A stretch of 64,000 nucleotides of DNA from Bernardetiaceae bacterium (GTDB taxonomy: Bacteria > Bacteroidota > Bacteroidia > Cytophagales > Thermoflexibacteraceae). Below are positions 52,800 through 55,188 of the stretch, in pieces. Position 1 is the stretch's first letter, and each line of letters begins with the position of its first letter. The position numbers were made by a program, and so were the translations under genes. The notes under the pieces were generated by a model. The model did not search any database and had not been told where the DNA came from. It worked only from the letters and a program-made list of their open reading frames with translations. The stretch is taken from contig JANWWZ010000006.1 in assembly GCA_025057115.1 (NCBI GenBank), positions 62,001 through 126,000 of the forward strand, given 5' to 3'.

Positions 52800-53327
52800 T
52801 TAATTTTTTAAACGATATTTTTCCAATGGAATCGTAATGCGTTCGTAGGTGATAAAAGCGTTAGGATATAGGGATTTAATTTGCGTGTAAAGAGCAAAAG
52901 CCTCGGTGCGGTAGAAAAAATTGCCCAACTTGACGCGAAAATTAGGCTGCTCGTAAACCAATTCGGGCTTTTCGGTGGTGATTTTTTGCAAATCTGAAAG
53001 CACTTTCGTTGCTTCTTGGCGGCTATTGCCAGAATAAACCACAATTCTGTAACCTTGAGAAAATTTGAGATTTCTGTTTGTGTTTGCCATCGCTTGGCGC
53101 AACGTATCTAATTGGGTTTGGATGGTATTGGTAATACTGACTTGCTCTGTGCTGGGCGGTGGCAAGTTTGTCTGCTCGGAAGGGTTGTTCAAAGTACTAG
53201 ACGGCTCGGGAAAATAAGGACGGTAAGGACTCAAATCCATTGAAAAGGAAGGTACCGTCTTGGGAACCCCACTTTTGCACCCAGCCAAAAAAAACAGCAC
53301 AGCACAAATGCTTACCAAAGGCTTCAT
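52800..53327 (-). CDS. SPOR-domain lipoprotein
   Basis: A 175-residue lipoprotein: signal peptide with lipobox LAGC, a proline/serine-rich linker (about 25-80), and a C-terminal SPOR-like domain (about 92-170, with GYRIVVYSGNSRQEATKVL, VRLGN-like NFRVKLGNFFYRTEAFALY). SPOR domains bind denuded peptidoglycan at division sites or elsewhere. Start at the ATG at 53327 because it opens the signal peptide. It is divergent from the type III PKS gene (52 bp). Confidence 0.85.
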   Translation of the reverse strand: MKPLVSICAVLFFLAGCKSGVPKTVPSFSMDLSPYRPYFPEPSSTLNNPSEQTNLPPPSTEQVSITNTIQTQLDTLRQAMANTNRNLKFSQGYRIVVYSGNSRQEATKVLSDLQKITTEKPELVYEQPNFRVKLGNFFYRTEAFALYTQIKSLYPNAFITYERITIPLEKYRLKN

Positions 53328-53378
53328 TTTCCTTTTTGTTTGGCTAAATTGATGCAAAATAAAAAAATCTATTGTTCG

Positions 53379-54494
53379 ATGCGCCAACCTCATATTACCG
53401 CTTTAGGCGTTGCAGTTCCTGCCTACCTAATTAAGCAAGAAGACGCTCCCGATTGGATAGCTACTTACTTGGCGCTTCCTGCTAAAGAATTGCGCAAACT
53501 TAAACTAATTTACCGCGCCAGTGGCATTGATACGCGTTATAGCGTCATTCCCGATTTTAGTTATACAACCCAAAGAGTGCTTTTTCCGTTGTCGGAGGAC
53601 TTGGAGCCTTTTCCTACCACTGCCCAGCGCATGCAAATATATCAACGCGAAGCACTTCCCTTAGCTCTCCAAGCCATTAGAAGTATGAATTTACCCAAAA
53701 ATTATTTGAGCCGAATTACTCACCTTATTGTAGTAAGCTGTACAGGCATGTACGCCCCTGGACTGGAAATAGACTTGATAAACGCCCTTTCTCTAACCCC
53801 TTGCGTCCAACGCCTTTGCGTTCACTTCATGGGTTGTTATGCCGCTTTCAGCGCTTTGAAAATTGCCGATGCCATCTGTAGGGCAGACCCTCAAGCCAAG
53901 GTGCTTATTGCTGATGTAGAGCTATGTACTTTGCATTTTCAGAAAGTGTACAACCAGGATCAATTGCTTGCTAATGCACTTTTTGCAGATGGAGCTGCTG
54001 CTGCATTAGTGGAATGTGTCTGCCCAGAGGAGGGATTGCTTTCACTGGAGGGTTTTTATAGCACCTTAGTACCCGCCGAGAGCAACTCAATGGCTTGGCA
54101 TATTAGCGACCATGGCTTTCAAATGCAACTTTCTTCATATGTGCCTTACATCATAGGCAGCGAGATTTACAGCTTTGTAGAAAAAATAAGACAAGATGCA
54201 AAAACCAACTTTGATTATTATGCCTTTCATCCAGGTGGCAAAAAAATACTACTTGAAATTGAGCAAGCCATCGGAATTACTGCCCAGCAAAATAGTTGGT
54301 CATACCAGGTAATGCGGCACTTTGGCAATATGTCTTCAGCAACTATTTTTTTCGTTTTGCAAAGGTTAATTGCCCAGCTCAAGGAGCGTTCCAGGCAAGA
54401 AGGCAAAACCCTTTTAGCCGCCGCTTTTGGACCAGGGCTTGTGGTGGAAGCTGCTGTGATGCAGATTAAAAACCTTCATTTTAGCCATGCCTAA
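53379..54494 (+). CDS. Type III polyketide synthase (chalcone/stilbene synthase family)
   Basis: About 371 residues from the ATG at 53379; ATGs at 53340 and 53352 are possible but leave almost no space to the divergent lipoprotein gene. The catalytic triad is complete: Cys121 (VSCTGMYAPG), His284 (AFHPGGKKIL) and Asn317 (GNMSSATIFF), plus the C-terminal AFGPGL motif. These enzymes extend an acyl-CoA with malonyl-CoA and cyclise it to pyrones, resorcinols or phloroglucinols. The stop overlaps a methyltransferase gene by 8 nt, so the product is probably methylated. Product identity is unknown. Confidence 0.95.
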   Translation: MRQPHITALGVAVPAYLIKQEDAPDWIATYLALPAKELRKLKLIYRASGIDTRYSVIPDFSYTTQRVLFPLSEDLEPFPTTAQRMQIYQREALPLALQAIRSMNLPKNYLSRITHLIVVSCTGMYAPGLEIDLINALSLTPCVQRLCVHFMGCYAAFSALKIADAICRADPQAKVLIADVELCTLHFQKVYNQDQLLANALFADGAAAALVECVCPEEGLLSLEGFYSTLVPAESNSMAWHISDHGFQMQLSSYVPYIIGSEIYSFVEKIRQDAKTNFDYYAFHPGGKKILLEIEQAIGITAQQNSWSYQVMRHFGNMSSATIFFVLQRLIAQLKERSRQEGKTLLAAAFGPGLVVEAAVMQIKNLHFSHA

Positions 54495-55188
54495 CTTTGC
54501 TTGCCGCAGCCTACAGCCTGAGCTGATAGACGATTTCACCTTGAGTGGTGAAACATTGTCCCGAAACCTTCGCGAACTGGAGTACATCAATGCCTACTTA
54601 GGCGGTAATGCAGTAACTCTCAAAGGGGTCAAATACTTTGTAAAGCGATTGGGCACCCCTATTTCCATCGCTGATGTAGGTTGTGGCGGAGGAGATACAC
54701 TTGGCTATCTTTCTCGATGGGCCGGGCGCTATCGCTACACCTTGCAGCTCTCTGGCTATGACGCCAATCCTTTCATAGTGGAATACGCCTTGAAGCGCCA
54801 TCAGGACTATCCCGATATTAGGTACTACTGCCTTGACGTTTGGTCAAAGGAATTTGAACAAGTGCAACCCGATGTATTTTTGCTTAGCTTGTTTTGCCAT
54901 CACTTTGGAGATGAACAATTGAAAACACTACTTGCTAGACTGCTGCATCAAGCGCGGAAAGGAATTATTATCAATGATTTGCAACGGCATCCAATGGCTT
55001 ATTATAGCATTCGCTGGCTGGCTCGATTGCTAGGAGGATCCCATTTACTACAACACGATGCCCCTCTTTCCGTGTTGAAAGGATTTCGAAAAGAAGAACT
55101 GCAAACCTTGTTACAGGAAATTGCTCCGAAAAAATTTCAAATTAGTTGGCATTGGGCGTTTCGCTACTTGGTGATAATTGAGAAGTAA
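54487..55188 (+). CDS. SAM-dependent methyltransferase linked to the type III PKS
   Basis: A 233-residue class I methyltransferase with the SAM-binding motif [15 protein letters not shown] (about 61-75), acidic end of strand 2 (SGYDANPF), and a C-terminal active-site region ([23 protein letters not shown]). It overlaps the PKS gene by 8 nt, strong evidence that it methylates the PKS product or an intermediate. The His-rich stretch after motif II is seen in O-methyltransferases of phenolic compounds. Its last 47 nt overlap the convergent DnaJ gene. Confidence 0.9.

Follow-up and report, generated by a model that had tools for sequence, protein, structure and literature searches.

An overlapping polyketide synthase and methyltransferase pair

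The window, by which we mean the whole stretch of 64,000 nucleotides analysed here from a Bernardetiaceae bacterium, carries on its plus strand a gene for a type III polyketide synthase (PKS; 53379..54494, 371 aa from the ATG at 53379). The assignment comes from the open reading frame and from Pfam, where both Chal_sti_synt_N (1.3e-22, 80.8 bits) and Chal_sti_synt_C (9.6e-21, 74.8 bits) pass the cut-off of 27. The next gene on the same strand encodes a class I SAM-dependent methyltransferase (MT; 54487..55188, 233 aa; assigned by Pfam, NCBIfam and a structure model), and the two reading frames share 8 nt, ATGCCTAA, at 54487-54494. An earlier, sequence-only reading of this locus had described a catalytically complete type III PKS overlapping a SAM methyltransferase by 8 nt; the reading frames and their coordinates agree with this, and the catalytic triad is indeed intact (Cys153, His284 and Asn317). 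The same three residues are kept in 78/78 rows of our PKS alignment, of which 12 are repeat copies of the same genomes, leaving 66.

The closest sequence relatives of the PKS in the PDB are Steely1 (8.6e-47) and then PKS18 (1.5e-42), and the protein falls below every curated NCBIfam cut-off. Its top model there is that of DpgA, the 3,5-dihydroxyphenylacetyl-CoA synthase (NF042429), against which it scores 124.4 bits vs a required 425. The MT matches Methyltransf_25 in Pfam (2.3e-8) and, below cut-off, PRK06202 as its top NCBIfam model (130 vs 243 bits), whilst its structure model is a confident class I methyltransferase (mean pLDDT 90) with a His138-His139 pair that is invariant across 18 aligned members. 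The structures closest to this model are CouO (Z 20.2, rmsd 2.7 over 206) and NovO (Z 20.0, rmsd 2.8 over 206), both C-methyltransferases, tied with plantazolicin methyltransferases (Z 20.1); with such a tie, we dropped the attempt to read C- versus O-specificity from structure.

Upstream of the PKS, a short AT-rich gap at 53328..53378 is presumed to be the promoter region; its borders, taken from the list of open reading frames, are the first codon of the PKS and the probable first codon of a divergent gene. The divergent neighbour is a lipoprotein-like gene on the minus strand with a sub-threshold SPOR match; with the start codon given in the list, the ATG at 53393, it would overlap the PKS, and an internal Met23, which gives a start at 53327, is likely to be the true one. 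On the other side, a convergent J-domain/TPR gene on the minus strand ends at 55142 and shares 47 nt (55142-55188) with the 3′ end of the MT gene. These flanking genes look unrelated to the pair, and the earlier remark that no oxidase, prenyltransferase or transporter is adjacent holds for adjacency within the window. The pairing of PKS and MT is itself not a chance arrangement, since the two lie within 10 kb of each other in 19/21 sampled genomes of the phylum that have the PKS and a strong match to the prenyltransferase described below, and overlaps recur in three other genomes of the window's genus (8, 8 and 14 nt).

Partner genes on other contigs

A genome scan with the window PKS gave 18 loci, 17 of them titled Algoriphagus and one from a Cyclobacteriaceae MAG. 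In 17/17 loci with enough flank (L018 ends before its neighbours and was left out), four genes stand together: an FAD oxidoreductase, a UbiA-family prenyltransferase on the opposite strand, the PKS and the MT. Both partners have a single match each at E <= 0.01 in the window's own genome of 2,995,891 bases, namely the UbiA-family prenyltransferase at G000:C1:38654-39526 on the minus strand (45% identity, E 3.2e-74) and the FAD oxidoreductase at G000:C19:12315-13481 on the plus strand (48% identity, E 2.9e-103). Each is interior to its contig (the UbiA gene at 38.7 of 93.5 kb, the FAD gene at 12.3 of 19.5 kb), and a by-eye reading of the open reading frames around them revealed no evident PKS- or MT-like gene. 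The minimal two-gene pathway that the sequence-only reading had proposed is rejected on these grounds: the genes that neighbour the pair in relatives exist on other contigs of the same genome, so that the pathway is scattered, not minimal.

The UbiA protein passes the Pfam cut-off for PF01040 (68.3 vs 34.2 bits); it reaches no NCBIfam cut-off, has no PDB sequence relative at E <= 0.1 and finds no match among plasmid records at E <= 1e-5. The first Asp-rich motif, NxxxDxD, is present in 40/40 aligned UbiA rows, and the second fits our search pattern in 32/40, the other 8 coming from 5 distinct genomes.

A natural fusion of prenyltransferase and polyketide synthase

One genus has four genomes (G360, G411, G443 and G467) in which the UbiA enzyme and the PKS form one protein of 652 residues, with UbiA first. 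The fusion genes lie at L100:2506-4464 (minus strand), L101:3124-5082 (plus), L102:2991-4949 (plus) and L103:2670-4628 (minus), each encoding 652 aa with no inner stop and with the PKS triad motifs retained, and both domains score over the Pfam cut-off in the two fusions scanned. MT and FAD genes follow the fusion gene. With pairwise identities of 77.5-99.4% among the four proteins, the fusion is seen in at least three distinct sequences. A fifth genome of this genus, G423 (L104), has separate UbiA and PKS genes that overlap by 4 nt. We regard the fusion as strong evidence that the UbiA enzyme and the PKS act together.

Co-occurrence across phylum and order

A fixed draw of 296 genomes from the phylum was searched at E <= 1e-20 for the PKS, <= 1e-25 for the FAD enzyme, <= 2e-19 for the MT and < 1e-45 for a strong UbiA match, and returned 134, 63, 64 and 21 genomes, respectively. 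Every genome with the FAD enzyme also has a PKS (63/63), and FAD enzyme and MT occur together in 62; this count excludes 33 weak MT matches (E 1e-18 to 9e-11), whose genomes all have a PKS match and none an FAD match. The 21 strong-UbiA genomes, which all fall among the 23 best PKS genomes, carry PKS and FAD enzyme without exception and the MT in 20 cases, and their genes are frequently linked: within 10 kb, PKS and MT in 19, PKS and FAD in 16, PKS and UbiA in 15, and all four in 12. The exception, G190 (L077-L079), belongs to the same order and has PKS, UbiA and FAD genes with no MT match, and a CAAX-protease-like (Rce1) gene follows its PKS. Weaker UbiA matches (E 1e-20 to 1e-28) in 26 genomes were kept out of this tally; each of these genomes has a PKS match, in none do the two lie within 10 kb of each other and in none is there an FAD match, and we suspect that these UbiA matches are EboC-like enzymes.

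The order was sampled by a second draw of 187 genomes, which shares some genomes with the first and for which the PKS threshold was set at 1e-60. PKS and UbiA were found together in 130 genomes, UbiA only in 6, PKS only in 1 (G435) and neither in 50. Three of the 6 UbiA-only genomes have a PKS match barely short of the threshold (1.7e-59 to 7e-58), and G362 (99% complete), G408 (81%) and G418 (84%) have the UbiA without any PKS match. The association gives a Fisher p of 1.7e-37, a value uncorrected for kinship which, as related genomes are not independent, overstates the case; physical linkage and the fusion stand independent of such p-values.

Could the UbiA enzyme nonetheless serve something else, the rest being a plain three-enzyme alkylresorcinol or alkylquinone pathway of PKS, MT and FAD hydroxylase, as in srsABC, hidABC or pkqABC? 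The phylum draw does contain 42 more genomes that have such a trio but lack this UbiA, with all three genes linked in 35, and plasmids from Psychrobacter, Roseomonas, Deinococcus, Paludisphaera and Novosphingobium carry the trio too; moreover, passages of PMC10896814 report that planctomycete PKSs of such operons yielded alkylresorcinols in a heterologous host. We nevertheless consider this unlikely for the window's genome, since the UbiA tracks one PKS lineage (21/21 in the phylum draw and 130/136 in the order draw), adjoins the PKS in 15/21 genomes and is fused to it in four.

Scattering within the family of the window

In the family of the window, 13 genomes, all draft assemblies, were searched: 12 have the PKS, the UbiA and the FAD enzyme, and one (G393) matches none of the four. 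PKS and UbiA lie on different contigs in 12/12 of these drafts, and all three genes lie on separate contigs save in G355, where UbiA and FAD share one. The sequence-only reading had named a split of PKS and MT in close relatives as a finding that would count against their operon, and the outcome depends on the rank: the pair is kept in 4/4 genomes of the window's genus, but of the 9 family genomes outside it, 8 have the PKS and the MT stands beside it in 0/8. The MT is found elsewhere in 5 of these (in G328 on the same contig, ~47 kb off), and 3 have no MT at E <= 1e-20. Given that the genes are mostly linked outside this family, we read its arrangement as the scattering of an older cluster whose parts have been retained.

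The FAD enzyme: hydroxylase, halogenase or reductase

The FAD protein falls in a superfamily that includes geranylgeranyl reductases, hydroxylases and halogenases, and the matches alone point in several directions. Its first four PDB sequence matches are FADH2-dependent halogenases, from Mpy16 at E 4.5e-12 to 5.6e-9, and the structural list for the model, which was built from the Algoriphagus protein and not from that of the window's genome (mean pLDDT 79), likewise opens with halogenases in its first six rows (Z 32.3-34.0), followed by aromatic hydroxylases (up to 30.4) and geranylgeranyl reductases (up to 29.4). A phenol halogenase at this step would give a halogenated, methylated and prenylated resorcinol, for which the chlorinated hierridin C could serve as a comparison. 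However, the WxWxIP motif shown by four aligned solved halogenases is missing from the FAD enzyme of the window's genome, which reads GGYCGISRI there, and neither W.W.I nor W.W.[IL]P was found in any of 61 FAD-enzyme rows. Halogenation was therefore set aside as the leading reading and kept as a rival, one that we hold to be very unlikely.

Perhaps the enzyme acts instead on the prenyl chain, so that PKS, MT, UbiA and a reductase would together yield a phenol whose prenyl tail is saturated. The best NCBIfam match is indeed the geranylgeranyl reductase superfamily TIGR02032, at 113.7 bits and below its cut-off of 158.8 (the Algoriphagus protein scores 114.3 bits), and the product of the agq cluster, discussed below, is named a dihydrogeranyl ether in a paper title. 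Against this, PKSs occur with members of this FAD family also in 42 genomes with no UbiA match at E <= 1e-10, and a prenyl chain on which a reductase could act is not known there. The motif that we take to mark geranylgeranyl reductases, YxWxFP, is absent in 61/61 FAD rows, and an assignment by motif was rejected accordingly; prenyl reduction seems to us distinctly improbable. Ring hydroxylation, preferred over halogenation on account of the missing WxWxIP, is most likely the role of this enzyme, and it is also the step of which we are least sure. One row of the structural list deserves mention in its own right: PDB 3nix, a Cytophaga hutchinsonii flavoprotein of unknown function (Z 32.1, 17% identity to the model), is possibly a relative from the same phylum.

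The ring-forming step

Judged by its motif, Trp240 of the window PKS would correspond to Gly256 of chalcone synthase. A Trp stands there in 48/48 PKS rows of the UbiA-type lineage (39 without repeats), in the PKSs of five PKS-MT-FAD trios from three other phyla and, by the PDB alignment, in Steely1. According to passages of PMC9927152, Trp281 of ArsB, in place of a Gly in ArsC, partly explains why one forms resorcinols and the other pyrones. We infer from sequence that Trp240 is the same site as ArsB Trp281, which would be suggestive, and only suggestive, of a resorcinol-type product. The sequence-only reading had allowed for a pyrone, and a pyrone or another non-resorcinol ring would fit the second-best PDB relative of the window PKS, PKS18, which is an alkylpyrone synthase. 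Yet PKS18 has, in our reading of the alignment, a Leu where the window PKS has Trp240, and although the equivalence with ArsB Trp281 is itself our inference, we give a ring of this other kind little credence.

A proposed four-enzyme pathway

We are highly confident that the PKS, the MT, the UbiA enzyme and the FAD enzyme belong to one pathway; the genes, their intact catalytic motifs, their co-occurrence, their clustering in relatives and the UbiA::PKS fusion were all computed directly. On balance, we also lean, if modestly, towards the fuller proposal that the PKS-MT pair of the window is half of a four-enzyme pathway scattered over three contigs, with the chemistry as follows. The PKS would add malonyl units to a starter, either acyl or acetyl, and form a resorcinol-type ring, which the MT would methylate on carbon or oxygen. 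The FAD enzyme would hydroxylate the ring, leading to a hydroquinone or quinone, and the UbiA enzyme would add a prenyl chain in the membrane, as a C- or an O-linked substituent. The type of ring, the order of these steps, the sites of the methyl and prenyl groups and the hydroxylation are predictions, and the expected outcome is a phenolic or quinone lipid that carries both a prenyl and a methyl group. The aromatic or phenolic-lipid output which the sequence-only reading had suggested is likewise the likely one.

Relation to known systems

A cluster with PKS, MT, flavin hydroxylase and UbiA-like genes, agq of Actinoplanes missouriensis, was reportedly described by Awakawa et al. in 2011, with alkyl-O-dihydrogeranyl-methoxyhydroquinones as its products. 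The likeness to our case, by description, lies in a UbiA-family enzyme tied to the PKS, here by co-occurrence and fusion. The difference is that agq belongs to an actinomycete, whereas the Bacteroidota genes are found order-wide, scattered in the window's family and fused in another genus. Passages of PMC10896814 state that alkylresorcinols of the agq type III PKS, AgqA, get prenylated and hydroxylated, and a passage of PMC4044012, citing the agq paper, mentions a membrane-bound prenyltransferase which acts on a small polyketide by O-prenylation.

The trio of PKS, MT and FAD enzyme has several relatives. SrsB, for its part, is a methyltransferase of a different type. Passages of PMC9927152 describe srsABC of Streptomyces griseus and pkqA-C of mycobacteria and Streptomyces as sets of PKS, methyltransferase and oxidoreductase or hydroxylase that lead to alkyl benzoquinones; the plan is the same as here, the tailoring enzymes are likened by description, and these passages name no prenyltransferase. 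The trio is also seen in hidABC of cyanobacteria, for hierridin B (in part of PMC8086630), and in a planctomycete MT-FAD-type III PKS operon (in part of PMC10896814, in whose available text the word prenyltransferase is absent). A plasmid trio of Paludisphaera borealis, a record not necessarily among those assayed in PMC10896814, is homologous to the PKS, MT and FAD enzyme of the window's genome (38%, 27% and 28% identity; E 4.2e-74, 1.4e-20 and 8.9e-22, respectively). In contrast to the srs, pkq, hid and planctomycete systems, with their three genes in one operon, the window's genome has its FAD gene unlinked, on another contig.

UbiA-family enzymes have been met in neighbouring contexts. Ubi-297/EboC of the ebo cluster comes from marine Bacteroidota, one tested enzyme being from Algoriphagus; it sits with eboA-E, and 'polyketide' and 'type III' are absent from the available main text of PMC9235831, whereas the UbiA here sits with a PKS. 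One cyanobacterial hierridin-like cluster also has a prenyltransferase (a passage of PMC8086630), and the loseolamycin PKS has a UbiA gene nearby (gene table of PMC7587189). Type III PKS clusters of Bacteroidota have been listed from antiSMASH in PMC10752948 and PMC11225308, in passages that do not analyse their genes. Among the full-text matches listed, which cover few subscription journals and are weak evidence of absence, none describes a UbiA-linked type III PKS in Bacteroidota or a UbiA::PKS fusion. The PKS-MT-FAD trio is already known and the addition of a prenyltransferase appears to have a precedent in agq; the order-wide Bacteroidota pathway, its scattering and the fusion may be new.

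How far could this be taken? It is conceivable, though we hold it to be doubtful, that the order (130/187 genomes) makes an undescribed prenylated polyketide hydroquinone or quinone lipid as a near-core constituent of its membranes, which might serve alongside menaquinone as a redox carrier or an antioxidant, with the PKS docked to the membrane prenyltransferase, as the natural fusion suggests, and with the pathway functionally intact where its genes are scattered. If true, a wide group of environmental Bacteroidota would share an uncharacterised prenylated phenolic lipid, and genome mining based on adjacency would misread its pathway as a two-gene orphan; indeed, the case shows how tools that rely on adjacency miss scattered pathways. 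A plain type III PKS call has grown into a hypothesis of four enzymes, two of them encoded by partner genes identified on other contigs, and the fusion is a ready protein for studying how a soluble ketosynthase may pass its product to a membrane prenyltransferase.

Other gene sets around related synthases

The PKS tree, drawn from 56 of the 78 rows (12 repeats and 10 Algoriphagus rows were left out), separates the gene-set types: the UbiA type (29 rows, support 86, not starred), a type with ketosynthase, SDR, dehydratase and PPTase genes (10 rows, support 100), one with a UbiH-like FAD enzyme after the MT (9 rows, support 97), the PKS-MT-FAD type (5 rows, support 100) and one with the PKS apart from MT and FAD (3 rows, support 100). 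The rows, also those behind the motif counts, are a non-random sample, which includes the 30 best PKS loci of the first draw and 40 further regions picked to cover the gene-set types, and the gene sets were named by Pfam in L055 for the second type and in L088 and L089 for the third, then extended by homologous reading frames or tree position. In chalcone synthase numbering, again assigned by motif, the ketosynthase type has Thr197/Phe256 near its active site vs His197/Trp256 in all others. The His/Trp pocket residues are also present in PKS lineages without this UbiA; occurring with and without it, they are uninformative on prenylation, and we abandoned the attempt to read the choice of starter from the pocket for the same reason.

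Loci of the ketosynthase type (L054-L063, for example L055:3003-9363) consist of an FAD enzyme, an MT and a divergent type III PKS followed by accessory genes, which in L055 are by Pfam an SDR, a FabA-like dehydratase, a FabF-like ketosynthase, a small gene with no Pfam match and a PPTase. The PKS of these loci seems to come with a dedicated source of acyl chains. It is an attractive idea, of which the residues are no proof, that this type draws its chain from the acyl set and the UbiA type from a prenyl donor.

Among plasmid records, the PKS most similar to that of the window (48.6% identity) is on plasmid 5 of the gammaproteobacterium Psychrobacter urativorans, where it lies with an MT and an FAD enzyme (L094:5989-8812); a recombinase gene and an IS630-related gene are close by. 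Neither annotation nor Pfam shows a prenyltransferase within 6 kb of this trio, and two 'hypothetical' genes beside it have no Pfam match at E <= 0.001. The plasmid PKS suggests transfer between phyla. Finally, plasmid pLA3 of Novosphingobium pentaromativorans carries a PKS, an FAD monooxygenase, an MT, a ketosynthase and a phosphopantetheine-binding protein (L098:713-5696), a set which resembles the L054-L063 architecture in another phylum.
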